From positions 1-48,049 of the IMG/VR virus record IMGVR_UViG_3300044492_000048: a DNA stretch of 48,049 nucleotides; one strand, 5' to 3'. Position numbers and translations under genes: made by a program. Numbering within the stretch: position 1 is the stretch's first letter; each line of letters begins with the position of its first letter. This DNA is from a virus. This document shows, one piece after another, positions 9,559-47,348 of the stretch. The notes below the pieces were generated by a model. It did not search any database and had not been told where the DNA came from. It saw nothing but the letters and a program-made list of their open reading frames with translations.

Positions 9559-11004
9559 GTGGCCAATATCCTCTCGAGGATAGCTTCAGCCCTCGTCAGT
9601 AAAACTGGCGAGGGTGAAGTTCGTCCAGGTCCGTACGAGTTGCCAGTCACAGGCGGCTGGCTACCGGCCGGTTCACCGTGGAATTTCTGGCAGTCCGGCA
9701 TCGATCCGTCGGGCGGCTTCGAAAGCTCCGCAGTCGTTGAAGCGTGCCTGTCGGCTTACAGCCAGACGGTCGCGATGTGCCCAGGGGATCACTGGAAGAG
9801 CAACAGCAAGGACGGCCGCGATCGCGTCAAGACTAGTGCGCTCTCGCGCATCCTGCGTTACCCGAACGCCTATCAGTCGCCGTCGGACTTCATGCTGAAC
9901 CTGACGCGGTCCCTCTACTCCGACGGCAATGCTTACGCGCTGGCGCTGCGCAACGATCGATATGAGATCGATGAGCTGCATCTGATGGACCCGAACCAGT
10001 CCTACCCGCAGATCGCGGCGACGGGTGATGTGTTCTATGCGCTCGGTGGCAACAGCGTTATCGACAAGCAAGTGAAAGAGCAGTTGATCGTGCCGCAGCG
10101 CGACGTGCTGCACGTCCGTCTGCACTCTACGCGACGGCGTTATCCGTTTCCGCTTGTTGGTGACACGCCGCTCGGCTCTGCGATGCAGGACATCATGCTC
10201 TCGAGCGCGATCACGCAACAGCAAATCCAATTTTATATGAACCAGGCGCGGCCGTCGGCCGTGCTGACGACCGATCTGATCCTCGATAAGGACCAGGTGC
10301 AGTTCATCCGCGATCGTTGGGATGAGCAATCGAAAGGCTTGAAGCAGGGCGGCACCCCAATCCTGACCGGCGGTCTCAAGCCCTACATGCTGGGGGCGCC
10401 GTCGAAAGACAGTGAGCTCGCCAACATGATGAAGGTGCCGGAAGAGCACATCGCGCTGGCGTTCCGGATTCCGATGGCGGTGCTCGGCATCGGCGGCGCC
10501 ACTGCCGGCTCGACCGAGGCACTGATGATGCAGTGGGTCTCGAGCGGTCTTGGCTTTGCGCTCAATCACATCGAGGACGCTTACGGCTTGCTTTTCAATC
10601 TGAAGGGCCAGCCGGATGAGTACCTCGAATTCGATACCAAGGCGCTGCTCAGATCCGCGTTCAAGGAAAGGATCGCCGGTTTGGCGCAGGCAGTCCAAGG
10701 CGGCATTTTTTCGCCGAATGAAGCTCGCGCCGAGGAGAGCCTCGACAGCGTCGAATTCGGCGACGAGCCGCGCGTTCAGCAGCAAGTCGTGCCATTGTCG
10801 GCAGCCGCAGCCATTCCGGCGGCGCCGGCGTCACCAGGCCCAGGCGGTGGCGGCCCGCCGCCGGCGGCCAGCATCGAGGTGAAACCCTCAGGCACGGTGG
10901 AGACGCCGCCGAAACCAACGGCAAAGGAATTCGAAGATGTCGTTGCCAGCCATGTCAGAGCGATCAATTTCAACGCCGATGCACATGACCGAAGCTACAC
11001 TTGA
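9559..11004 (+). CDS. Portal protein (HK97 family)
   Basis: This 481-residue protein is the dodecameric DNA gate at the head vertex. The start is a GTG three nt after the previous stop. Recognisable HK97-portal features are PGDHWKSNSKDGRDR near 75, PSDFMLNLTRSLYSDGNAYAL about 107-127, DVLHVRLHS about 175-185, FRIPMAVLGI about 302-311 and STEALMMQWVS about 318-328. A long Pro/Ala/Gly-rich disordered C-terminal extension follows (about 410-470). Length and order fit the family. Its 3' end overlaps the next gene by 68 nt. Confidence 0.95.
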   Translation: MANILSRIASALVSKTGEGEVRPGPYELPVTGGWLPAGSPWNFWQSGIDPSGGFESSAVVEACLSAYSQTVAMCPGDHWKSNSKDGRDRVKTSALSRILRYPNAYQSPSDFMLNLTRSLYSDGNAYALALRNDRYEIDELHLMDPNQSYPQIAATGDVFYALGGNSVIDKQVKEQLIVPQRDVLHVRLHSTRRRYPFPLVGDTPLGSAMQDIMLSSAITQQQIQFYMNQARPSAVLTTDLILDKDQVQFIRDRWDEQSKGLKQGGTPILTGGLKPYMLGAPSKDSELANMMKVPEEHIALAFRIPMAVLGIGGATAGSTEALMMQWVSSGLGFALNHIEDAYGLLFNLKGQPDEYLEFDTKALLRSAFKERIAGLAQAVQGGIFSPNEARAEESLDSVEFGDEPRVQQQVVPLSAAAAIPAAPASPGPGGGGPPPAASIEVKPSGTVETPPKPTAKEFEDVVASHVRAINFNADAHDRSYT

Positions 11005-12046
11005 GGCGTTGCACGTCGCGCTAGGCCAGGTCGTCGCTCAGCAGCGCAAGAACTGGGACCGCGAGCGCGAAGTCTATGAGGCGAATTGTCGGGCCACGAT
11101 CGCGGAGCTCAAGAGCGTTGTGGTTGACCTCCAGGCGAAGGTCGATCGGGCGCTGATGGCGGTCAAGAATGGCGATCGGGGTTTGCCTGGTCTCCAGGGG
11201 CCGCAAGGCGAGCAAGGCGAGCGTGGATTGCAGGGGCCTGCGGGCCCCGCCGGCGAGCGTGGCGAGCGAGGGCAGGATGGGAGCCCCGGTCTCATTGGGC
11301 CGCCTGGCGAACGCGGGCTGCAAGGCCTCGAGGGCAGAATGGGCGAACGAGGCCCCCAAGGTGACCGAGGGGACATCGGCCAATCGATCAAGGGCGATCG
11401 CGGCGAGAAGGGCGAGAAAGGCGAGAGGGGCCTTCCTGGCGAGATCGGCAAGATGGGCTTGCGGGGCGAGCCAGGGTTACCTGGCGCACGCGGGGAAGCC
11501 GGCGCTCCCGGTGAGCGAGGCGAGCGTGGCCCGATGGGCATGCTGCCCGTCGTCAAGGTCTGGGAGACCGGCGTTCATTATGCGGGCGAGGTGGTGACAC
11601 GCGCCGGCGGGACGTACCAGGCGGCCAAGGATACGGCCGACGAGCCTGGCAGCTCGAGAGACTGGGTTTGCCTGGCGCGCGCCGGCGCCGACGGACGTTC
11701 GCCGATTGTGCGCGGTCTGTTCAAGGAAAATGAAACCTACGTTAATCTCGATATGGTGGCGCTCGGTGGCGGCACCTTCATCGCCAAGAAGGACAACCCC
11801 GGCCCATGTCCTGGGCCAGGTTGGCAGCTCCTGGTCAGCCAGGGCAAGGCCGGCCCGAAGGGCGAGCGCGGCCAGGCCGGCGAGCGCGGTGAGCGCGGAC
11901 TTCCAGGTGTATCAGCAGCGACGATTGTCGACTGGGAAATCGATCGCGAGACCTTCACGGCGGTGCCGATCATGTCGGATGGCCGCGAAGGCAAGGCGTT
12001 GCCGTTGCGGCCGTTGTTCGAACAGTTTCAGCTTGAGGCCCGCTGA
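10937..12046 (+). CDS. Collagen-like protein with a carbohydrate-binding-like insert
   Basis: This protein has 369 residues. A coiled-coil N-terminus (about 15-75) leads into Gly-X-Y repeats ([19 protein letters not shown]…, about 78-200). Next comes a small domain VKVWETGVHYAGEVVTRAGG (about 202-240) resembling the chitin/carbohydrate-binding modules found in phage fibres. A second such segment (FKENETYVNLDMVALGGG) and a second Gly-X-Y run (about 302-325) follow. Lying between portal and connector genes, it is likelier a head fibre or neck whisker than a distal tail fibre. AAGGA precedes the ATG at 10937; in-frame ATGs at 10979 and 10985 are alternatives. Its stop overlaps the next start. 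Confidence 0.85.
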   Translation: MSLPAMSERSISTPMHMTEATLEALHVALGQVVAQQRKNWDREREVYEANCRATIAELKSVVVDLQAKVDRALMAVKNGDRGLPGLQGPQGEQGERGLQGPAGPAGERGERGQDGSPGLIGPPGERGLQGLEGRMGERGPQGDRGDIGQSIKGDRGEKGEKGERGLPGEIGKMGLRGEPGLPGARGEAGAPGERGERGPMGMLPVVKVWETGVHYAGEVVTRAGGTYQAAKDTADEPGSSRDWVCLARAGADGRSPIVRGLFKENETYVNLDMVALGGGTFIAKKDNPGPCPGPGWQLLVSQGKAGPKGERGQAGERGERGLPGVSAATIVDWEIDRETFTAVPIMSDGREGKALPLRPLFEQFQLEAR

Positions 12047-24730: not shown

Positions 24731-25902
24731 TGCCAAATCCGCAAGAGATCGCAGAGCTAAACGTCAGCGGCGTGGCCTACCAGGACTGGGAATCGGTCTA
24801 CGTTCAGCATCGGTGGCAACAAGGCTGGCCGACGTTTCGCTTCACGGCGACCGAGAAGGAAGTGCCGCAGTTATACACCGATCTCAAGTTCAAGCCTGGC
24901 GATCCCTGCACGATCAATCTTGGCGGCCAGCTCGCAGTCACCGGGATCATCACCAATCGCCAGGTCGCTTACACCGCGACTGAACACGGTATTCAGTTGT
25001 CCGGCGTCGGCAAGCAGTGGGCCGCCGTCAAGTCGAGTGTCCCGCTCGACAAGGGCATGAGTAATTTCGACAACATGACGCCTGAAGAGGCGATCAAGAA
25101 AGCGGTTTTTCAGGTCCAAGGTTCTCTGAAAGTTATCGGTACGGTCGACGCCACCAAGCTAGAACGGCTGCAAGCAAACCCAGGTGAGCTGACGTGGGAC
25201 TTCTCCGATCGTGTTGCGCGGATGGGCCTGGCCTCGATGGGATCGGATCATCTCGGCAATGTCTTGCTGATTGGCGATCACTCGTACCCGACCACCCAGG
25301 AGCTGATCGAGGGCGAGAACATTTTGAAAATGCAATGCGTGTTTTCCAACGAGCAGATGTCGAGCGAGTACGCGGTGAACGGGCAGTTCGCCGTCACCGA
25401 TGAAAAGACAATGGCGCAGGCAGCCGAAGTGAGGGCCAAGGCGACCGGCGTCATGACAGGCGTTTACAAGTATCTCGGCATTCCACTCGAACAGCCGGCG
25501 AAGGACCAGGCACAGGCGCAGAAGCGGGCGAATTACGAGGCGCTGCAAGCCGACGGCACGCAAGTCGTCGCCAACGTCACGGTGCAGGGCTGGCTTCGGG
25601 ACGGCGTCAACCTCTGGCGCTGTGGCGATATCGTCCTGATCAATTCGCCGATGTGCCCGCTGAACCTGGCGATGAAGATCCAGACCGCGACGTTCGCCCA
25701 GGACAGCCGTGCCGGCACGACGACGCAGCTCGAGTGCGTTCTGCCGTGGAAATTGGGGCAGCGGAATTATGCCGGCGGCAATCCGAAGGCCGGCGAGACG
25801 ACAGACTTTCCGAAACCGGATGCGGCAACAATGCCACCGTTGCAGCCTGGCACATCGGCGCCGGTGTTGCCGCCTGAGTTAACTCCAAAGGGGCGAAGAT
25901 AA
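24730..25902 (+). CDS. Baseplate hub protein (Mu gp44 / P2 gpD-like)
   Basis: This 390-residue protein matches Mu gp44 (about 379 residues), the T4 gp27-like hub. It has an N-terminal strand-rich domain ([16 protein letters not shown]), LQLSGVGKQ-like segments, [16 protein letters not shown] near 138-153 and a C-terminal part with [26 protein letters not shown] overlap connects it to the previous gene and another to the spike gene. Its hub trimer would hold the spike at the baseplate centre. Confidence 0.92.
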
Positions 25903-28214
25903 TGCATCGGCAGTCACCGTTGACCGCAGGATATGTCGGCTACTCCAGTGGCGGCGCCCGTGCGCTGGTCGAGGAGATCAACGACAATCCGATGATGCAG
26001 GAAATGAAGGGCTCCTTCATGCACGGCGAAGCCCGTGAGAAGATCGAGAGCCCGCAGAACTATGGTTTCACGTCGGTCGTCAACAAGGCGACCAAAGGTA
26101 AGGACGGCACGATCGAGGAGTGCGCCGAAGCGTATATCAATTTCTTAGGTGGCAACCGCAGCTTTCCGGTCGCGGCGATAATGGACGATCGTCGATACCG
26201 TCTGAAGGAGTTGAAGCCTGGTGACGTTGCGATGTTCGATCACCATCAGCATCAACTGCATTTCAACAAGGACGGCGTTTTCCTCACCGGCCGCACCGAC
26301 AAGAAGGTGAAATTCCAGTTGGCCGATCCGCCGCAGGATTCGCAGAGCGGCGGCGGCAAGAGCGCCGAGGCGTTAGCGGCTGACGGCGACAGCTCGAGCT
26401 CGTCCGGCGGTGGCAACAAGAAGAAGGGCCAGAAGCAACGCTACGAGACCAAGGGCAAGCAGTATTACGAGATGACGAAGGATGCCACGACCCTGCATCA
26501 CGACCAGGCGATTGGCTACAAGACCGGGACGCACACATTTTCGCCGCCTGACGGCGCGGCTCTGAACGACGACGGCACGCCCAAGGCCGGCGGGCCGCTG
26601 GTCAAGATCATGGGCGACAAGTTCACCCAGGGCTTTGGCGAGTTCACCAAACAGGTCAGCGCGGCAACGCCGCAGCTCCCGCAACACCTCACGACCAAGG
26701 CCTACGTCGATGCTCTGTTTGCACTGGGAGGAGGTGGCGGCGGTGGACAGCCGGGGCCGCCAGGTCCGCAAGGTCCGCAAGGTGAGCCTGGCGAAGATGG
26801 CAACACCATCCTGTATGCCGCTCGCAACCCGACAGGGGAAGATGGCGTCGACGGCGATTCCTTCATCAACACCTCGACGGATTACTTTTTCGGCCCGAAG
26901 GCCGGCGGCTTGTGGCCGGTGGGCGTCTCGTTGATAGGGCCGAGAGGCGGGCAAGGTGCGCCAGGTGCAGTAGGCCCGATGGGCCCGCAGGGTATCCAGG
27001 GCGTCAAGGGCGATACCGGCGCGACCGGCGCTCAGGGTCCGAAGGGCGACACCGGCGCGCAGGGCCCTGTCGGTGCTGCGAGCACCGTGCCAGGGCCGCA
27101 AGGTGTGCAAGGTCCGCAGGGCGTCAAGGGCGATACAGGCGACGTGGGTCCGCAAGGCCCTGTTGGCGCCGCCGGCGCTGACAGCACGGTGCCGGGGCCG
27201 CAAGGACCGAAGGGCGACACCGGCGCGACTGGCGACACGGGCGCTCAAGGTGTCCAAGGCACGCAGGGGCCGAAGGGCGATCCAGGCCTTCAGGGCCCGC
27301 AAGGCATACAGGGGCCTCAGGGCATCCAGGGAGCCACCGGCAGCGGCGTTACGATGCAGGGCTCAGTTGCTACGGCCGCCGATCTGCCGCCCACAGGCAA
27401 CGCCCAGGGCGACGCCTACATCGTTCAGGAGGACGACAGTCTCTGGCTGTGGGATGGCGCCGCCTGGGTCAGCGGCGGCTCGATCCAAGGTCCGCAAGGT
27501 GCTCAGGGTCCGCAAGGCGTCAAGGGCGATACGGGTGCGGCCGGCGCGACAGGCGACCAGGGCATTCAAGGCGTGCAGGGGCCAGTCGGCGCGACGGGTG
27601 CCCAAGGCGCCAAAGGCGACACCGGAGCTGTGGGACCGCAAGGACCAGTTGGCGCGACTGGAGCTGATAGCACGGTGCCAGGTCCGGCGGGGCCGACAGG
27701 CGCTCAAGGACCGCAAGGCATTCAAGGCGTGAAGGGCGATAGCGGCGCCGTTGGTCCGCAAGGTCCGCAAGGCAATGACAGCACGGTGCCTGGGCCGGTG
27801 GGGCCTGCCGGCGCGCAGGGGCCGCAAGGCATCCCAGGAACGCCAGGCGCAACGGGTGCGCAAGGTCCGAAGGGTGATACCGGCTTGCAGGGGCCGCAGG
27901 GGCTACCTGGATCGACAGGCCCGCAGGGGCCGACCGGCCCGCAAGGACCGTCGGGCGTCGTCTTTGCGTCGGACGCGCCGCCGCTCACGCCGACTGACGG
28001 ATCGCTTTGGTTTGAATCAGATTCGGGCTCGCTTTTTTTCCGGTACTTCGATGGTAACAGTTCTCAGTGGGTCCAGGCGACGGCGATAACCAACACTGCG
28101 ACCACACGCGGCGCGCAAGATGAAATGATGGAGCTGCGCGCGATGGTGCGGCAACTTTCGATGCAGACCGCAGAGCTGCGCTCTGAGCTGGAAATACTGA
28201 AAGCGGGAAGATAA
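25902..28214 (+). CDS. Baseplate spike (Mu gp45-like) fused to a long collagen-like fibre
   Basis: This protein has 770 residues, while Mu gp45 has about 200. Residues 1-about 145 match the spike base ([35 protein letters not shown]). A Ser/Gly/Lys-rich linker follows, then a strand-rich spike segment to about 280. Residues about 283-685 are two long Gly-X-Y runs ([13 protein letters not shown] …) interrupted by two fibre modules ([10 protein letters not shown]…[10 protein letters not shown] and [20 protein letters not shown]). The end is an ESDSG…[10 protein letters not shown] module and a coiled coil ([19 protein letters not shown]). It is a spike that has swallowed a fibre gene, or a fibre that replaced the spike tip. 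Confidence 0.9.
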
Positions 28215-32579: not shown

Positions 32580-32924
32580 ATGTCCATCGTCAACATCAAT
32601 GTGGAGAACGACGCGGATTTTTACCGCGCGTTTTCCTGGCAGACGATTGATGGTGCCCCCATCGACATGACGGGCGGGACGATGGAAATGATGCTGCGCC
32701 GTCGTGCGTCGGACCAGGTGGCGCTGCTTCGCCTTGCTACCGACACCGGAGAGATCGTGATGACCAATCCGGTGAACGGTGCCTTCACGGTGCGGCTCTC
32801 GCAGTACGCGCTGGAGCGGCTTGGGCTTGGCAGTTTCGAGCATTCGAACATCTTCTCGCGCGGCGGCTACAAGGTCCGCATCTGGACTGGCACGCTCACT
32901 AACAACGCTGGGCCAACGCGATGA
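32580..32924 (+). CDS. Small fibre-region hypothetical protein
   Basis: This 114-residue, strand-rich protein contains VENDADFYRAFSWQTIDGAP and GTMEMMLRRRASDQV, a pattern found in small proteins preceding collagen-like fibre genes in alphaproteobacterial phages. A short N-terminal attachment module for the next product is possible. It overlaps the next ATG (ATGA). Function is unknown. Confidence 0.7.
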   Translation: MSIVNINVENDADFYRAFSWQTIDGAPIDMTGGTMEMMLRRRASDQVALLRLATDTGEIVMTNPVNGAFTVRLSQYALERLGLGSFEHSNIFSRGGYKVRIWTGTLTNNAGPTR

Positions 32925-33652
32925 CGAACACCGTTGACGTTAGCGGCATTGCTAACCTCGAGATTGCGCCAAGCGAAGGCACCATCGTCGTTACGACGGA
33001 TAGCGACGTTGAAGTCCTTCAGGTGCTTTCGCCGGGACCGCCTGGACCGCCTGGCCCAGAAGGCCCGCCGTCAACGGTGGTTGGTCCTCCAGGCCCTCCT
33101 GGTCCTCAGGGACCGAGAGGAAATACAGTCGGCTACGGCCCCGCCGATCCGGTCAATACCTACGGCGCGAACGGCGACTTCTACATCAACACGACAACCA
33201 ATTTTATCTTCGGCCCGAAGCTGGGGAATATCTGGCCTGCCGGCACTTCGATAGTAGGACCGCAAGGTCAGAAGGGCGACAAAGGCGACAAAGGCGATCA
33301 AGGCATCAAGGGCGACGTTGGTGTCCAAGGCCCGATCGGCCTGACCGGAGCTGACGGCAATACCGTGCTCTACGGCGCGGCCAATCCAGCCGCAGCCGTC
33401 GGCGTCAACGGCAACTTCTACATCAATACGACGACGAATTTTTTGTTTGGCCCGAAGATGGGCGGCGCATGGCCCGCAGGCACGTCGCTGGTAGGACCGC
33501 AAGGTCCGGCCGGCACCGCGCAAATGATCATCGCGGATAATCCGCCAGCAGGCGCGAGTGACGGATCGGTCTGGTACGAGTCAGATTCCGGACTGACCTT
33601 TCTGCGCGTGAATGACGGCACATCGACCCAATGGGTTCAGATAAAGCTCTGA
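32921..33652 (+). CDS. Collagen-like tail fibre protein
   Basis: This 243-residue protein has an N-terminal strand-rich domain, then Gly-X-Y runs ([42 protein letters not shown]). Two copies of an about 45-residue module follow (NT-YG-A-P … GDFYINTTTNFIFGPK / GNFYINTTTNFLFGPK … WPAGTSIVGPQG). It ends in ESDSGLTFLRVNDGTSTQWV. The same modules occur in the spike-fibre at 25902, so the phage builds several fibres from a common parts list. Confidence 0.88.
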   Translation: MTNTVDVSGIANLEIAPSEGTIVVTTDSDVEVLQVLSPGPPGPPGPEGPPSTVVGPPGPPGPQGPRGNTVGYGPADPVNTYGANGDFYINTTTNFIFGPKLGNIWPAGTSIVGPQGQKGDKGDKGDQGIKGDVGVQGPIGLTGADGNTVLYGAANPAAAVGVNGNFYINTTTNFLFGPKMGGAWPAGTSLVGPQGPAGTAQMIIADNPPAGASDGSVWYESDSGLTFLRVNDGTSTQWVQIKL

Positions 33653-39578: not shown

Positions 39579-39904
39579 CGGCCACGGCCAGGCCCGCCAT
39601 TGGGCACAGCTCGGCCGGTCACACGGCCGCCGGCATCATAAAACGTCGTCGTGCCCTGGCTGTCGACCGCAGCTCGGCCCATGACACGGCCGTCATTGCC
39701 GTAGATCGTCGTGGCGCCGTCGCTGTGAGTGTACGATCGGCCGGCAATACTGCCGTCCGCCCCGTACACCGTGCCTTGCGTTGCCGGCCCGATGTGAGGC
39801 TCGCCGCCGTAATAGTATCGCGCTCGAGCTGGTGAAGATTCCTGAGCTGCGCCGGCGCCGGTGAGCGCCAGCAAGATGCCGAAGGTTAGAAGATGGGCTC
39901 GCAT
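39575..39904 (-). CDS. Exported Gly-rich repeat protein
   Basis: This 109-residue protein has an N-terminal signal peptide (MRAHLLTFGILLALTGAGAA, cleavage likely after AQE). The mature part has about four imperfect about 19-residue repeats built on VxGR…G.TT.YG..GRV.GRA. These repeats with alternating Tyr/Gly resemble surface beta-structures (DUF-type YGADG repeats). Export from the infected cell or lysogen is likely. It overlaps the HNH gene by 19 nt and the small membrane gene by 4. Confidence 0.75.
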   Translation of the reverse strand: MRAHLLTFGILLALTGAGAAQESSPARARYYYGGEPHIGPATQGTVYGADGSIAGRSYTHSDGATTIYGNDGRVMGRAAVDSQGTTTFYDAGGRVTGRAVPNGGPGRGR

Positions 39905-40239
39905 TTTGGTTTCCAGTTCTTGAGGATCTCAAAGGGTGACGGAGACGAAGGATCGCCGATTGTCATGACGGTGGCGCCTGGCTTGATCCGGTTGGTCTCT
40001 TCGTTGTGGCGTCCGCTATTGCACTGATAGCAGGCGGCGACGATGTTGCCGGCGATCGTCAGGCCGCCGGCGTAGACCGGCACCAGGTGATCAGCGGTCA
40101 TCAGGCGCGGCTCGTCGGCCGGCGTCGTCTTGACCAGGATCATCGGCGTCTGGCACCAGTAGCAGAGGCCGCCCTGGGCACGGCTGGCCCTTTGCGCCAG
40201 GCGCCGTCCGATGTGATGGTCGCGCCGGCGCAGGCTCAT
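39886..40239 (-). CDS. HNH endonuclease (McrA-type small nuclease)
   Basis: This 117-residue protein contains GGLCYWCQTPM (first CxxC), TADHLVPVYAGGLTIAGNIVAACYQCNSGRHNEE (DH…N…H core and second CxxC), the ββα-metal HNH fold with a zinc knuckle. Such small HNH proteins in phages are linked to packaging or to mobile activity. Here it is well away from terminase and in the accessory arm, so its substrate is unclear. Its start codon is provided by one of the junction elements (see repeat entry). Confidence 0.9.
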   Translation of the reverse strand: MSLRRRDHHIGRRLAQRASRAQGGLCYWCQTPMILVKTTPADEPRLMTADHLVPVYAGGLTIAGNIVAACYQCNSGRHNEETNRIKPGATVMTIGDPSSPSPFEILKNWKPKCEPIF

Positions 40240-40454
40240 CGGTCCTGCTCCGGTGCGAGGGCGGCGCTGGCGCGAAACAGATCACCCAATGTTATCCTGT
40301 GTCGCGCCGAACTAGAATAAAGCGTGCTGTACTCTGGTTCATCGTCCTCCGCGCATTCCGCAGCTTTGGCGAAGGGACGCAGCGCCGCTTCCAGTTGTTC
40401 GACGCGGGCAGTGAGACGGACTATCTCTGCGTTATGCTGTTCAAAATCGCTCAT
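40236..40454 (-). CDS. Small coiled-coil protein ending in ALAPEQD
   Basis: This 72-residue protein begins MSDFEQHNAEIVRLTARVEQLEAALR, a short coiled coil like the LEALREI helix of its neighbours, and ends RASAALAPEQDR. The last codons are part of the junction element that also gives the HNH gene its ribosome site. It overlaps both neighbours by four bases. It is probably a paralogue of the genes at 40451, 42520 and 42720. Function is unknown. Confidence 0.65.
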   Translation of the reverse strand: MSDFEQHNAEIVRLTARVEQLEAALRPFAKAAECAEDDEPEYSTLYSSSARHRITLGDLFRASAALAPEQDR

Positions 40455-40756
40455 TTGTCCTGCTCCGGTGCGAGGGCTGCGCGGGCGATGTCAGATGGGA
40501 CTAGCTGTCGATGACTGTCAGCCCATTTCTCAATCTCCCGCAGCGCCGCCTCCAGCGCCTCGATGCGATCGGCTTGGTCAAGAATACGGTCAGCCTGACT
40601 GTCGATGATGTCTTGCAGCTTACGCAGTTCAGCAGTAGCGACCAAAGCTCGCATTTCCCGCTCATAGAATTGCTCTCGCGTAATTCCAAGGTCTTGGATT
40701 TCCTTCGGATGAATACGCCAGAAACGCTTGGCAAGCGCCGCAATCGTGTCGCTCAT
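40451..40756 (-). CDS. Coiled-coil protein with RIEALEAALREI and ALAPEQDK
   Basis: This is a 101-residue protein. A helical N-terminus (KEIQDLGITREQFYEREM) leads to the shared core DRIEALEAALREIEKW and then SDIARAALAPEQDK. The core and end are nearly identical to those of the proteins at 42520 and 42720, so they are paralogues or share a recombined cassette end. GAGG precedes the ATG; a 106-nt non-coding stretch lies upstream. Confidence 0.7.
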   Translation of the reverse strand: MSDTIAALAKRFWRIHPKEIQDLGITREQFYEREMRALVATAELRKLQDIIDSQADRILDQADRIEALEAALREIEKWADSHRQLVPSDIARAALAPEQDK

Positions 40757-40818
40757 CTGTAACCTCAGTTTGTAAGTGGGTGCCCTAGCTGCTCAGTTGG
40801 GTGCACACCAAAGGTTGG

Positions 40819-40854
40819 CTATGCGGCTAGGGCGAGGCGTGCCAACGTCGCCAT
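40819..40854 (-). other. Possible 11-codon leader ORF in the 40757-40862 gap
   Basis: Between the stop at 40863 and the start at 40756 lies a 106-nt gap. Its only open feature is ATG GCG ACG … GCA TAG, encoding MATLARLALAA, 14 nt after a GGAG on the minus strand. The gap also contains the 8-bp palindromes GTGTGCAC-like and GGGTGCCC. The gap is probably an intergenic leader or a degraded gene end; nothing else is seen in it. Confidence 0.2.
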
Positions 40855-40862
40855 CTCTAGTT

Positions 40863-41165
40863 TCACTCCTCCAGTAATTTGTCGACAACGGCGCCGACGA
40901 TCGATGACGGCTCGCCGCGTTGGTCGCGCGTCACCGCCGTTTTCAGGTTCTCCAACGGCACGCCGTATTGCAGCGCCAACGACATCAGTATGGCGCCGTC
41001 GCGAGCGATCGCTTCGGCGGTCGTGCCGGATTTTTCGAAGTTGATAAACACTTCGCCGATCGCGCCGCTCGGATACCGGCCGATCGTGACGACGTAGAGC
41101 ATGCCGTTATAGTCGACGGTGAACGTCTCGGCATGCCGGCGCATCGGCAGAGGATTGCGGTTCAT
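40863..41165 (-). CDS. TSCPD-domain protein
   Basis: This 100-residue protein starts MNRNPLPMRRHAETFTVDYN and contains YVVTIGRYPSGAIGEVFINF, then AEAIARDGAILMSLALQYGVPLENLK and SSIVGAVVDKLL. This is the TSCPD domain known from the C-terminus of vitamin B12-type ribonucleotide reductases and from stand-alone phage proteins. The stand-alone copies have no established role. I start at the ATG 41165, which overlaps the upstream stop (ATGA); the frame extends to 41228. Confidence 0.85.
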   Translation of the reverse strand: MNRNPLPMRRHAETFTVDYNGMLYVVTIGRYPSGAIGEVFINFEKSGTTAEAIARDGAILMSLALQYGVPLENLKTAVTRDQRGEPSSIVGAVVDKLLEE

Positions 41166-41365
41166 CGGATTGCTTCCCATTCTCCACACCAGTAGGTTTC
41201 TTCCGGCCACACCGTTGGCCATTCCCATTGCGTCGCGGCATTGTCGTCATCGGTGATACTCACCGATCGCGGCGCATGTCGCCGACACTGTAACGGGTCG
41301 TCATCATCGATAGGAGTATCGTATTGCGGTCGACTGAACCGGCAGTTCTTGCAGCTCTCTTGCAC
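41162..41365 (-). CDS. Small Cys4 zinc-binding protein
   Basis: This 67-residue protein starts at GTG after CAGGAG. It reads M-QESCKNCRFSRPQYD … LQCRRHAPRSV … WPTVWPEETYWCGEWE, with two CxxC-like groups (CKNC and C…C) forming one zinc site and a Trp-rich C-terminus. This Cys/Trp pattern is widespread among small phage proteins without function. It overlaps the next gene (ATGA). Confidence 0.75.
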   Translation of the reverse strand: MQESCKNCRFSRPQYDTPIDDDDPLQCRRHAPRSVSITDDDNAATQWEWPTVWPEETYWCGEWEAIR

Positions 41366-41385
41366 GGCTTACTCCTGCAAAATCA

Positions 41386-41411
41386 GGGGGCGCACCCTGA
41401 GATGCGCCCCC
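41386..41411 (-). terminator. Terminator downstream of the PEP-CTERM gene
   Basis: GGGGGCGCA and TGCGCCCCC form a perfect 9-bp stem with an 8-nt loop. On the minus strand TGATTTTG follows, giving a short T tract. It isolates the PEP-CTERM gene from the rest of the arm, consistent with an independently expressed moron. Confidence 0.8.
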
Positions 41412-41467
41412 GTCATTTCATCCAGCCAGCGCGACCACTAAGCTAGACGAAACTCCGCGTTCACTTT

Positions 41468-42184
41468 TCAGGCCAGACGGAACGACAGACCCTCACGACG
41501 GCGCTTACGCATCGCCAGACCGCCAACACCAAGGAAGCCCGCGATCATCATCACCCACGTCGAGGCTTCCGGCACCGCCGCTACTTGCGGGATCGGAGCA
41601 GCGTCGATGCGGAAATGCTCGAAATCATTGATCATGCCAGTGGCACCGAGGAACAGATCGATGTCGGTGATGACTTCGCCGTTCGCGACGGAGAAATCGA
41701 ACCCGTTCTGCTGGTTGCCGTTGCCGAGATCGTAGCCGCCGCCGCCAAGGCCTGCGATGCCGCCGGCGAGGTTGGTGAAGTTGAACGTCTCGGTATTGCC
41801 GTTCGCATCCACAGCCGACACCCTGAAGAACACGTCGCCGGTGCCCTTCAGAGAAAAGATGTCGCGCGTGGTGCCGAGCTGGACCGTGTTGGTGGCGTCG
41901 AACACGGTGATGTCCAGATCGCGGGTGTTGACGATCTTGATATCCTGGCCGTTGGCGGCGCCGGTGAAGCCGGTGGTCGCGGACACGTCGAAGAACCGCA
42001 CCACTTCGTTGTTCTGGCCGTTGAGATGGCCGAGGATCAAGCGGGAGTTGGTTGGATCAATGCCGGTGAACACGACGTTGTTGCCGGTGCCGGGAATGCC
42101 GGTGGTGTTGAGGAACACGTCGGCCTTGACCGGGGCCGCCGCTAACACAATTAGAGCCGTAGTCGCCAATAAAATTTTTCTCAT
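41468..42184 (-). CDS. Secreted PEP-CTERM protein (phage moron)
   Basis: This 238-residue protein has an N-terminal signal peptide (MRKILLATTALIVLAAAP, cleavage near VKADV). The Gly/Thr-rich beta-structured middle includes GGGGYDLGNGNQQNGFDFSV. The C-terminus reads VPEASTWVMMIAGFLGVGGL with a following RKRRR. PEP-motif (here PEA), hydrophobic segment and Arg cluster are the PEP-CTERM sorting signal read by exosortases of the host. This is the first such signal I see in a phage head-to-tail context of this kind. It is encoded on its own with a terminator behind it. Confidence 0.88.
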   Translation of the reverse strand: MRKILLATTALIVLAAAPVKADVFLNTTGIPGTGNNVVFTGIDPTNSRLILGHLNGQNNEVVRFFDVSATTGFTGAANGQDIKIVNTRDLDITVFDATNTVQLGTTRDIFSLKGTGDVFFRVSAVDANGNTETFNFTNLAGGIAGLGGGGYDLGNGNQQNGFDFSVANGEVITDIDLFLGATGMINDFEHFRIDAAPIPQVAAVPEASTWVMMIAGFLGVGGLAMRKRRREGLSFRLA

Positions 42185-42243
42185 ATTAGTAGTCCTCTTC
42201 TTCTGATCAGGAAGTTGGTGCGGAATGCACCGCGAAGCGTCAC
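42181..42243 (-). other. Possible 20-codon leader between small genes
   Basis: GTG 42243 to TGA 42181 on the minus strand encodes MTLRGAFRTNFLIRRRGLLI. Its start overlaps the stop of a 9-codon frame (42269-42240) and its stop overlaps the PEP-CTERM ATG (ATGA). Basic/hydrophobic and very short, it may simply carry ribosomes to the PEP-CTERM start. Confidence 0.25.
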
Positions 42244-42265
42244 GATGTGGCGCTTGGCGGTGAAC

Positions 42266-42523
42266 TCATTTCTCCTCATGCCTGCGTTTCATCAACGGAT
42301 GGTTCATTTTGTCCTGCTCCGGTGGTGGGGGTGGCAATGGCTGCCAATGAGTTGGGTTTGCGAAGCTCCCACTGCTGTCACAGCGCCAAGCGTATTCGTC
42401 CTGCTGGGGTTCTCCTGGATTGCCGTAACGCTGCCGGCCGCAGTAGATCGGAACGACTGTTCCAGCGACGGCCAGCAATACAGAAACAGCCTTCGGCGCG
42501 GTCGCAATCGGCTGCCAACTCAT
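42266..42523 (-). CDS. DUF551-like small phage protein
   Basis: This 85-residue protein begins MSWQPIATAPKAVSVLLAVA and contains YGNPGEPQQDEYAWRCDSS and PTHWQPLPPPPPEQDK, the standard 'W.PI.TAP…THWQPLPPPP' pattern of small phage proteins. It does not stop at PEQDK as its neighbours do. One extra A in the junction element moves ATG into frame, and 13 residues more are added (MNHPLMKRRHEEK). It may be a normal variant or a recombination scar. Confidence 0.75.
   Translation of the reverse strand: MSWQPIATAPKAVSVLLAVAGTVVPIYCGRQRYGNPGEPQQDEYAWRCDSSGSFANPTHWQPLPPPPPEQDKMNHPLMKRRHEEK
42305..42324. repeat. Junction element copy with one inserted A (copy C)
   Basis: Plus strand CATTTTGTCCTGCTCCGGTG, one T longer than the other copies. 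On the minus strand the AAATG becomes AAAATG, so the upstream frame reads through the ATG instead of stopping. Confidence 0.7.
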
Positions 42524-42723
42524 TTGTCCTGCTCCGGTGCGAGAGCGTTGCGGGCGATGTCGCCAGCTATCTGGTCGCCGTTGTCATCCCATTCCGCGAT
42601 TTCCCGCAGCGCATTCTCCAGCGTCTCGATGCGGGCGGCGGCATCAAGGTAAAGCTGCACATCTCCGGTGATAGTTTCATTCGGCGTGTGCCAAGCGCGC
42701 AGCCGCTTCACAAGCTCGCTCAT
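42520..42723 (-). CDS. Small coiled-coil protein with ALAPEQDK end
   Basis: This is a 67-residue protein. The N-terminus MSELVKRLRAWHTPNETITG is its own; the middle AARIETLENALREIAEWDDN and end IARNALAPEQDK are shared with the proteins at 40451 and 42720. ATGA overlaps on both sides. The shared module suggests a family of small multimerising adaptors with variable N-termini. Function is unknown. Confidence 0.7.
   Translation of the reverse strand: MSELVKRLRAWHTPNETITGDVQLYLDAAARIETLENALREIAEWDDNGDQIAGDIARNALAPEQDK
42521..42543. repeat. Gene-junction repeat, copies A-F
   Basis: Consensus on the plus strand CATTTGTCCTGCTCCGGTG followed by CGAGGGC. Copies begin at 40237 (A, CATCGGTCC variant), 40452 (B), 42305 (C, one base longer), 42521 (D), 42721 (E, CATTTCTCTTG variant) and 42900 (F, CCGCTGCCC at the end). 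On the minus strand each gives G(C)(A/C)CCGGAGCAGGACAAATGA. The GGAGCAGGAC is the Shine-Dalgarno of the next gene, ATGA is stop plus start, and the same bases encode APEQDK. Only exact or near-exact repeats outside coding frames would be non-functional; here function in three ways is built into the same bases. Confidence 0.85.
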
Positions 42724-42902
42724 TTCTCTTGCTCCGGTGCGAGGGCGTGTTGAGCAATCAGCTTGTAAACTTGCGCCCGATGCCCGCCGTAGTCGGGGTC
42801 ATTGGCAATCTCCCGCAGCGCCGCCTCCAGCGCCTCAATGCGGGCATTGGCGATATCTCTGTCCTTGTTCGCAGCGGCTATAATTTCAGTAAGCACATTC
42901 AT
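42720..42902 (-). CDS. Small coiled-coil protein ending in ALAPEQEK
   Basis: This 60-residue protein starts MNVLTEIIAAANKDRDIANA, followed by RIEALEAALREIAND and IAQHALAPEQEK. I start at ATG 42902, which is provided by junction copy F with its GGAG site. The frame also extends to an ATG at 42962 that overlaps the upstream stop, so a 20-residue longer form is possible. Copy F itself is left over from an earlier cassette whose start is gone (the frame reads …SSFRAAEQDK but has no start codon). Same family as 40451 and 42520. Confidence 0.65.
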   Translation of the reverse strand: MNVLTEIIAAANKDRDIANARIEALEAALREIANDPDYGGHRAQVYKLIAQHALAPEQEK

Positions 42903-42958
42903 TTGTCCTGCTCCGCTGCCCTGAAGCTGCTGCATCGCCATTGTCTGCGGATAGTCTC

Positions 42959-43207
42959 TCATGCCCTGCCCTTCATTTCAGGCTGGCCTTCGAACCGCGC
43001 GATCACTTCCTTCATCATCACGACGATGTCTTTTCGGGCGGCGTTGGAGATGTAGTTCGTCCGCGCACCTTCCGGCCCGTCGAACGGCGCGATCAGCAAT
43101 ACGAACGCAGTCTGCTTGGGGCGGTCTGGATCGTTGAAGGCTTCATCCAACACTTCGGCAATGGCCTTCATCTGGCCCCAGAATTTCGGGTCGATTGGTT
43201 CGCTCAT
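42959..43207 (-). CDS. Small phage protein (ARTNYISN … ARFEGQPE type)
   Basis: This 82-residue protein starts MSEPIDPKFWGQMKAIAEVL and has a strand TAFVLLIAPFDGPEGARTNY followed by SNAARKDIVVMMKEVIARFEGQPE. I recognise this pattern from small proteins of alphaproteobacterial phages; no function is known. I use the ATG at 43207, which overlaps the upstream stop (ATGA). Confidence 0.75.
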   Translation of the reverse strand: MSEPIDPKFWGQMKAIAEVLDEAFNDPDRPKQTAFVLLIAPFDGPEGARTNYISNAARKDIVVMMKEVIARFEGQPEMKGRA

Positions 43208-46589: not shown

Positions 46590-47348
46590 ATGGCCAAGAA
46601 GGAAGTAGAATCCACTTTGAACATCCCGCCACTTCAGCAGGGTGCCATCAATGTTCGCATCATCGGTACGGAGCCGCTGTACCAGAACCGCATGGCCGCG
46701 AAGGCCAAGCAGCAGCTCCTGGTGGGCGGTCAGAAGAAGGGCAAGGCGGATCGTGCCAACATCAAGCACAATCCGGTGCAGGAATTTCTCGACAGCGCCG
46801 AGATCCTGCCGGAAGGCCCGACGGCTCTCGGTCTCAACGTTATCGCCGTTAAGGCGGCAATGGCGACGGCGGCGCTCGAGACCAGGGACACCGGCCTGAC
46901 CAAGACCGGCGCACAGCGTTTGCTGTTCATGCCGGGGTCGTTCGCGCCGCTCTACGGCGTGCCGCAGCTCAAGATGGATGTCGTCCGCTCGGCCGATATC
47001 AATCGGACGCCTGACGTGCGGACGCGGTGCTTCCTGCCGCAGTGGGGCGCCGAGATCCAGATCAAGTACATCACGCCGCAACTGTCGGTGCAGTCGGTCG
47101 CGGCACTTCTGTGCAACGCCGGCATCCTGGTTGGCGTCGGTGATTTCCGCCAGGAAAAGGGCAAAGGCGCCTTCGGTTCTTTCCGCGTGTTGCTGCCTGG
47201 CGAGAAGGACCAAGAGTGGGATGATCTGGTCAAGAATCACGGTCGCAAGGCGCAGTTGGCTGCGCTCGATAATCCTGAATTCGCTGATCGTGACACCGCT
47301 GATCTGATGGAATTTTTCCACGATGAAGTGAACAGGAGGGCTGCATGA
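46590..47348 (+). CDS. Phage protein of the right-end pair; possibly replication or RAMP-like
   Basis: This is a 252-residue protein starting at ATG 46590 (the frame extends to 46305; that part is antisense to the RHH gene). Segments include INVRIIGTEPLYQNRMAAKA, KADRANIKHNPVQEFLDSAE, RCFLPQWGAEIQIKYITPQL and AGILVGVGDFRQEKGKGAFG. The same order occurs in phage proteins of unknown role (IRG..PL..NR … VGIG.FR…GG.FGRF.V). The Gly-rich GVGDFRQEKGKGAFGSF loop resembles the glycine-rich loop of RAMP/Cas7 proteins, but that is only a resemblance. It overlaps the next gene by an ATGA. Confidence 0.75.
   Translation: MAKKEVESTLNIPPLQQGAINVRIIGTEPLYQNRMAAKAKQQLLVGGQKKGKADRANIKHNPVQEFLDSAEILPEGPTALGLNVIAVKAAMATAALETRDTGLTKTGAQRLLFMPGSFAPLYGVPQLKMDVVRSADINRTPDVRTRCFLPQWGAEIQIKYITPQLSVQSVAALLCNAGILVGVGDFRQEKGKGAFGSFRVLLPGEKDQEWDDLVKNHGRKAQLAALDNPEFADRDTADLMEFFHDEVNRRAA

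Follow-up and report, generated by a model that had tools for sequence, protein, structure and literature searches.

A short repeat at the ends of small phage genes as a probable boundary for gene exchange

Where several small phage genes end in the same short stretch of DNA, one may ask whether that DNA is a shared gene end or a border across which whole genes are traded. The question is raised here by the window, a 48 kb tailed-phage contig analysed over its full length (IMGVR_UViG_3300044492_000048, 48,049 nucleotides (nt), with terminase and endolysin genes detected), in which a repeat of consensus CCGGAGCAGGACAAATGA, here termed the joint, provides about 20–40 letters of like DNA at gene ends. 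We consider it probable that the joint is a boundary sequence making small phage genes interchangeable via joint-to-joint exchange.

The joint in the window and in other phage contigs

Six copies of the joint, all on the minus strand, were located at 40236, 40451, 42305, 42520, 42720 and 42899; 0.07 copies were expected with three or fewer mismatches, and no shuffle reached six. The first-pass annotation had every copy combining a gene end, a ribosome site and an ATGA stop/start; the copy number stood, as did the description for the four full joints, i.e., 40236..40256 (GCACCGGAGCAGGACCGATGA; tail EQDR), 40451..40471 (exact consensus; EQDK), 42520..42540 (exact consensus; EQDK) and 42720..42740 (GCACCGGAGCAAGAGAAATGA; EQEK). 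Each of these forms the C-terminal tail of its gene, carries a GGAG/AGGA ribosome-site sequence inside the tail and overlaps the next start through ATGA. The description failed for the other two. The copy at 42305..42325 has decayed by an extra A (GACAAAATGA) that abolishes the stop/start overlap, and the DUF551-type gene there continues to a later stop; the copy at 42899..42919 (GCAGCGGAGCAGGACAAATGA) supplies a ribosome site and ATG to the next gene and ends no gene, since its EQDK frame is open for just 19 codons from the preceding stop and contains no start codon, and it looks like a truncation scar ahead of that next gene. The genes ending at 40236, 40451, 42520 and 42720 also share a coiled coil, which the same annotation had recognised as LEALREI while overlooking its role as a second exchange point; it is termed the hinge below.

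An exact 18-mer scan of IMG/VR returned 28 contigs, and a scan with all synonymous spellings of A-P-E-Q-D-K-stop returned only 34. The collection amounted to 79 joints in 38 non-redundant IMG/VR contigs (window included, one contig duplicate removed; L-numbers denote individual matched records or loci), with up to five joint repeats per genome. Nine of the 256 possible spellings of APEQDK-stop were used, and 36 of 56 copies (a count that includes L042, a chance purH match) were identical; the commonest spelling was expected at 0.45% from the codon usage of long open reading frames (ORFs) in the joint contigs. The joint is conserved as DNA, beyond its peptide. Identity between contigs was 0.25–0.29 (chance) up to about position −22, climbed through (ATC)GCCCGCGCCGCCCTCGCA, and reached 0.8–1.0 in the core, where columns are high because the copies were selected on the core; that selection touches neither the 20 nt upstream nor the flanks at chance level. 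The 3' edge of this island was sharp, directly after ATGA, and the 5' edge was graded over about 20 nt.

Joints lay on a single strand in each of 40 fully searched records (a reversed-pattern control gave 0 matches), and successive joints were spaced at 2 modulo 3 in 36 of 40 intervals, the value needed when every interval consists of a single ORF and neighbouring ORFs overlap by 4 nt. Because the cassettes are one ORF long and so spaced, swaps keep frame and translation signals, which bears out the earlier proposal on this point. The joint-ended genes were mostly about 40–110 codons long, and most genes in the carriers, which are soil phages, end without a joint. A relative of the window terminase was found in only one of 40 other records, many of them fragments, at 35% identity; with carriers thus unrelated by terminase, the joint crosses phage lineages, presumably within shared hosts. 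Among named phages, the DNA of the region had no match in the phage collection, the joint had chance matches only, and a hinge-plus-tail peptide had none; the N-terminal half of one small gene resembled (about 40%) Rhizobium and Aminobacter phages. The sole joint match in a bacterial genome, within a purH-like gene (named from its sequence) of a Phycisphaerae metagenome-assembled genome, was judged to be chance. Neither joints nor hinges were present at 61 loci carrying relatives of the gene that lies upstream of the array.

Probable gene exchange at joints and hinges

Gain and loss of genes between relatives mapped to joints, as the first-pass annotation had suggested a comparison of sister genomes might reveal. 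At five sister loci (L011, L013, L018, L024 and L036) the same two anchor genes stand on the left (end ..CTRKGLRKVxTRGGRSWRCRK; 68–91% identical) and on the right (M[TS][DE]REPVSHAIAS.., 67 aa; 84–95% identical), the right one being followed by a PEP-CTERM gene. Between the anchors stand cassettes of one or two genes each, namely MIQHRC+MMWG, MSDLVERLRHW+MISFGKG, MNFHPDK/PTSDPSW+MSQPKRK, MSERHPLC/PTSDPSW and MTEQDD/PTSDPSW, all of which stop at the joint ahead of the right anchor, so that at these five loci the boundary marks where relatives cease to differ in their modules; the cassette blocks were mostly at control-level similarity. L018 and L024 differ by a clean joint-to-joint insertion of one 60-aa gene. 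The PTSDPSW module (L018, L024 and L036) was 97–99% identical in L024 versus L018 or L036, whereas the anchors there were 69–86% identical, and this module has therefore moved separately from the backbone. Other module cases are MTPISPEY (L012/L022), MTPDREPL (L015/L021), MNEAELGF (L006/L009/L021/L029) and LYEGSK (L008/L031). The N-terminal module of the window gene MSDTIAALAKRFW follows a joint in L022 and not in the window, and the similarity begins exactly at the ATG; the MMWG gene differs in joint presence between L011 and L009. The GcrA homolog ends in ..DRSGRGG in L045 and in ..DRSGRASEQDK in L049; that of L040 has no joint tail, and a small extra segment lies between gcrA and the same next gene. 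A phage-encoded GcrA cell-cycle regulator adjoins the joint tail or is fused with it at L049 (2190), L040 and L045.

We compared flanks with joints and hinges masked and scored one-sided homology for each pair; an unmasked all-pairs comparison was set aside, its similarities being inflated by hinge and joint matches. One-sided homology was found in 41 of 59 comparisons at joints (69%), in 278 of 543 at other ORF ends (51%) and in 101 of 409 at random points. In a stricter version the odds ratio of joints to random points was 3.5–3.8; joints did not differ significantly from other ORF ends. In the carrier phages, mosaic borders lie at gene ends in general. What distinguishes the joint is that the junction DNA survives exchange. 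Across sharp one-sided exchanges, identity in a 42-nt zone reached 70% or more in 21 of 39 cases at joints, against 16 of 152 cases elsewhere at ORF ends (odds ratio 9.9), and in the sharp joint events the next 40 nt beyond the zone were at chance. Random points, mostly inside genes, had such a zone in 56 of 195 cases, as expected from gradual fading of similarity. The island profile and the conserved zone agree in placing the same DNA at the borders of non-homologous modules.

The hinge (RIEALEAALRE, a predicted coiled coil; 32-bp DNA CGCATCGAGGCGCTGGAGGCGGCGCTGCGGGA; 87 copies) was likewise an island of DNA with flanks at chance. The same N-terminal module was joined to different C-terminal modules in L007/L013, L009/L021/L029 and L026/L033, and the same C-terminal module to different N-terminal modules in L006/L009, L031/L040/L045/L049, L015/L025 and L010/L019/L047 (low-scoring pairs in the hinge module list are partly unmasked tail variants and are to be disregarded). 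Judged from these pairings, the hinge is a second exchange point at which the N- and C-terminal halves of genes would be shuffled.

The best surviving alternative is a constraint on translation, in which the joint is a translational-coupling or regulatory element, a role that has been proposed for SAS, kept by selection on RNA or on a binding factor, and the recombination around it is general mosaicism. The joint does hold a ribosome site and ATGA, gene ends without a joint are also frequent exchange edges, and the existence of such repeats is proven by the SAS repeats of mycobacteriophages (PMC3203893). Such a constraint does not account for conservation that continues beyond the core, with a graded edge, for as much as about 20 nt of plain coding DNA upstream, nor for the hinge, which behaves as the same kind of island without any start site; moreover, most genes of the carrier phages have no joint, and joint RNA folds no better than shuffles. 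We therefore regard this explanation as unlikely.

Paralogy has still less to recommend it. The first-pass annotation had allowed that the shared DNA might reflect only paralogy of adjacent genes, i.e., tandem duplicates of one family with the joint as their conserved C-terminus, and hinge and tail are indeed common to four of the five window genes, while one cluster of 11 genes has an MSDLVERLR-type start. When the bodies of 68 joint-ended genes were compared after removal of tail and hinge, however, they fell into 47 clusters; the bodies are mostly unrelated, the homologous gene bodies expected of tandem paralogs were not found, and paralogy fails as an explanation. The hinge was absent from about a third of 72 joint-ended genes. 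Tails occurred on a GcrA homolog (PF07750, E 1e-22, L049), on a DUF551 protein (in the window) and on unrelated small proteins, the same gene was found both with and without the joint, and synonymous sites were frozen in the tail and not in homologous bodies. Identical tails on unrelated bodies have already largely refuted this possibility, and we hold it to be quite improbable. In homologous pairs the nonsynonymous rate (dN) was below the synonymous rate (dS), from which the small ORFs are probably translated.

A site-specific cassette system, with the joint recognised by a phage integrase or a comparable enzyme in the manner of attC, would suit the single orientation and the one ORF per cassette, both of which are integron-like. 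Tyrosine integrase was recognised in only 7 of 41 joint-bearing records and not in the window (the search covered recombinases of the tyrosine type), and no dedicated integrase was evident, in keeping with the earlier view that homology rather than an integrase was at work. The joint has neither a palindrome nor a stable fold, many joint variants are tolerated, and exchange occurs at the unrelated hinge too; we give this system very little credence. An assembly artefact, by which short repeats led the assembler to join different phages, is just as hard to credit: the repeat is short and nearly all relatives are metagenome contigs, but these come from many separate metagenomes, the same junctions turn up in separate metagenomes (L009 and L023 are identical over 6.4 kb; L006, L009 and L021 share one joint with both flanks), variants of the joint go with the gene downstream of them (L012/L022), and whole arrays are in frame.

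Joint-to-joint exchange would work as follows. The joint encodes the tail (R)AALAPEQDK, within which the ribosome site of the following gene is placed, and ends in ATGA, so that a gene runs from joint to joint; we infer that this ribosome site is functional. Because every joint is the same DNA, any two joints could exchange whole genes, and such an exchange would add, remove or replace one whole gene and leave a coupled, in-frame junction. Exchange at the hinge would recombine half-genes, i.e., N- and C-terminal modules. The simplest account is exchange through the identical 20–40 bp by phage annealing recombinases or RecA; the joins would be made mostly by phage single-strand-annealing or RecA-type recombination, between co-infecting phages or prophages. 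ERF was recognised in 4 of 41 and RecT in 4 of 41 joint-bearing records (8 of 41 in total), many of these records being fragments. The small proteins would be useful accessory genes of fast turnover.

Several observations weigh against joint-to-joint exchange. Joints did not differ significantly from other ORF ends in the stricter version of the one-sided test (odds ratio 1.2–1.4), and the partner had no joint in about a third of the sharp events. The pairs are non-independent and five sister contigs dominate them, with about six unrelated downstream or upstream modules contributing. Neither ERF nor RecT was recognised in the window contig or in most records, many of which are fragments. All relatives are IMG/VR contigs, nearly all of them metagenome assemblies. 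Lastly, L022 (where a gene was cut mid-body and fused at the 5' edge of the joint), L049 and the copy at window 42899 look like illegitimate or microhomology-mediated joins. Since some scars are thus not homologous, we think it likely that most joins arise by homologous exchange and that the joint captures illegitimate ones as well. Rather than the cassette-exchange system that the first-pass annotation pictured, the joint may be a boundary that recombination simply comes to reuse.

A broader reading, which we put forward tentatively and think rather doubtful, is that joint and hinge are the ends of a "standard part", kept since unrelated phages sharing hosts trade genes and half-genes; if this were true, such ends would give a combinatorial repertoire of small proteins without a dedicated recombinase.

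The window array and its neighbours

The array was read on the minus strand from the scar-like joint at 42899..42919. Small gene 1 (42720..42902, 60 aa, MNVLTEII...RIEALEAALREI...HALAPEQEK) starts from the ATG of that joint and bears a hinge at 42811..42842 (RIEALEAALRE; repeat families D2/D5); small gene 2 (42520..42723, 67 aa, MSELVKRLRAWH...RIETLENALREI...ARNALAPEQDK) has its hinge at 42602..42633. Small gene 3 (42266..42523, 85 aa), of DUF551 type (PF04448), has no hinge and reads through the decayed joint. A second conserved element, GCGGTGCATTCCGCACCA (42216..42233), forms the right border of the array ahead of the gene for a PEP-CTERM secreted protein (41468..42184) that flanks it, and a strong terminator-like hairpin lies directly after that gene at 41386–41411 (minus strand). 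Further along are small gene 4 (40451..40756, 101 aa, MSDTIAALAKRFW...RIEALEAALREI...ARAALAPEQDK), with a hinge at 40536..40567, and small gene 5 (40236..40454, 72 aa, MSDFEQHN...RVEQLEAALRPF...AALAPEQDR), with a diverged hinge at 40375..40406 (repeat family D5); an HNH endonuclease gene (39886..40239) starts at the last joint. All of these lie on the minus strand.

Genes for PEP-CTERM secreted proteins accompany the arrays in 16 of 38 joint contigs (the window and 15 others, at the same locus). The element GCGGTGCATTCCGCACCA was present in 14 copies in 13 contigs, ahead of secreted-protein genes with conserved signal peptides, most of which end in PEP-CTERM tails; the loci listed for PEP-CTERM/GCGGTGCATTCCGCACCA are the window, L008, L009, L011, L013, L015, L022, L024, L025, L033, L037, L041 and L050. 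The ectodomains of the PEP-CTERM proteins differ between sister loci, as if swapped too. At the position where EQDK would be expected in the final cassette of an array, another recurring tail is found, ..DQSSPPKAS (DNA AGTTCACCGCC..; L009 4499; L033 3063; L041 12850 and 13447; window near 42262), which may be a border sequence of the array.

Elsewhere in the window, collagen-like G-X-Y repeat proteins are encoded among the structural genes (10937–12046, 25902–28214 and 32921–33652). The protein encoded at 46596–47348 (+) was modelled as a candidate recombinase and rejected, as it resembles Cas7/Csm3 RAMP proteins and not an annealase. It belongs to phrog_4652, which is widespread (at least 94 IMG/VR contigs), and its AlphaFold model (pLDDT 84.5), compared with the PDB, matched RAMP proteins of the Cas7/Csm3 type (best E 7e-5, TM 0.3–0.5, about 10–13% identity).

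Comparison with known systems

It is an old question whether phage mosaicism stems from homologous recombination at short boundary sequences or from illegitimate recombination and subsequent selection. The joints offer a natural set of dozens of junctions in which one can see the boundary, find it repeated, trace it by its variants and, given its short length, test it. One stretch of DNA would do four jobs, serving as protein tail, ribosome site, stop/start and recombination homology, and would give a simple route for assembling new small proteins from modules. Among recent mosaics between temperate and/or defective phages, about 30% were reported to show traces of homology, and Rad52-like phage recombinases drive mosaicism between diverged phages (PMC3945230).

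The arrays of joints are not integrons. They resemble integron cassettes as one-ORF units in one orientation between repeated sites, but the joint has no integrase partner and no attC-like foldable inverted-repeat site. Nor are they the PeSL of T4-type phages, a promoter and stem-loop between genes that shuffles small accessory genes (Arbiol 2010; Comeau 2014; via PMC4503421). The likeness lies in repeated small elements at gene borders with a role in accessory-gene shuffling, and the difference in the joint being coding and having no detectable stem-loop or sigma-70-like promoter: fold z-scores at the joint were +1.0 to +1.1, worse than shuffles, and a scan of 40150–43000 for promoters of that one type found none at any joint. 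They are also not the SAS of cluster K mycobacteriophages, 13-bp ribosome-site repeats before the starts of varied gene families that sometimes include the stop of the upstream gene (PMC3203893). The joint is like SAS in being a ribosome-site repeat directly upstream of the starts of different gene families; its sequence is different, SAS lies mostly upstream of the start, and cassette exchange is not shown for SAS. The window contained 2 weak matches to the SAS consensus GGGATAGGAGCCC, with 1.3 expected, and none of them was at a joint.

A comparable case is found in the mycobacteriophage Island3, where the adjacent genes 67 and 68 have their last 18 residues and about 50 bp in common, one gene was gained or lost, and recombination at the homology was proposed (PMC3029335); that is a single isolated event, whereas the format of the joint recurs across dozens of phages. 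Short boundary homology at module borders in lambdoid and P22-type phages lets general recombination swap modules (Susskind & Botstein 1978; Clark et al. 2001; via PMC3029335), although boundary sequences are not findable at most mosaic borders (PMC3029335). The joint resembles those boundaries in being short homology at the borders of unrelated modules, and departs from them in lying within coding DNA, in being tail, ribosome site and stop/start at once, in recurring up to five times per genome around single tiny genes in carriers unrelated by terminase, and in being accompanied by a second, intragenic boundary. Among the "short conserved boundary sequences" invoked to explain phage mosaicism, the joint is an unusually rich new form.

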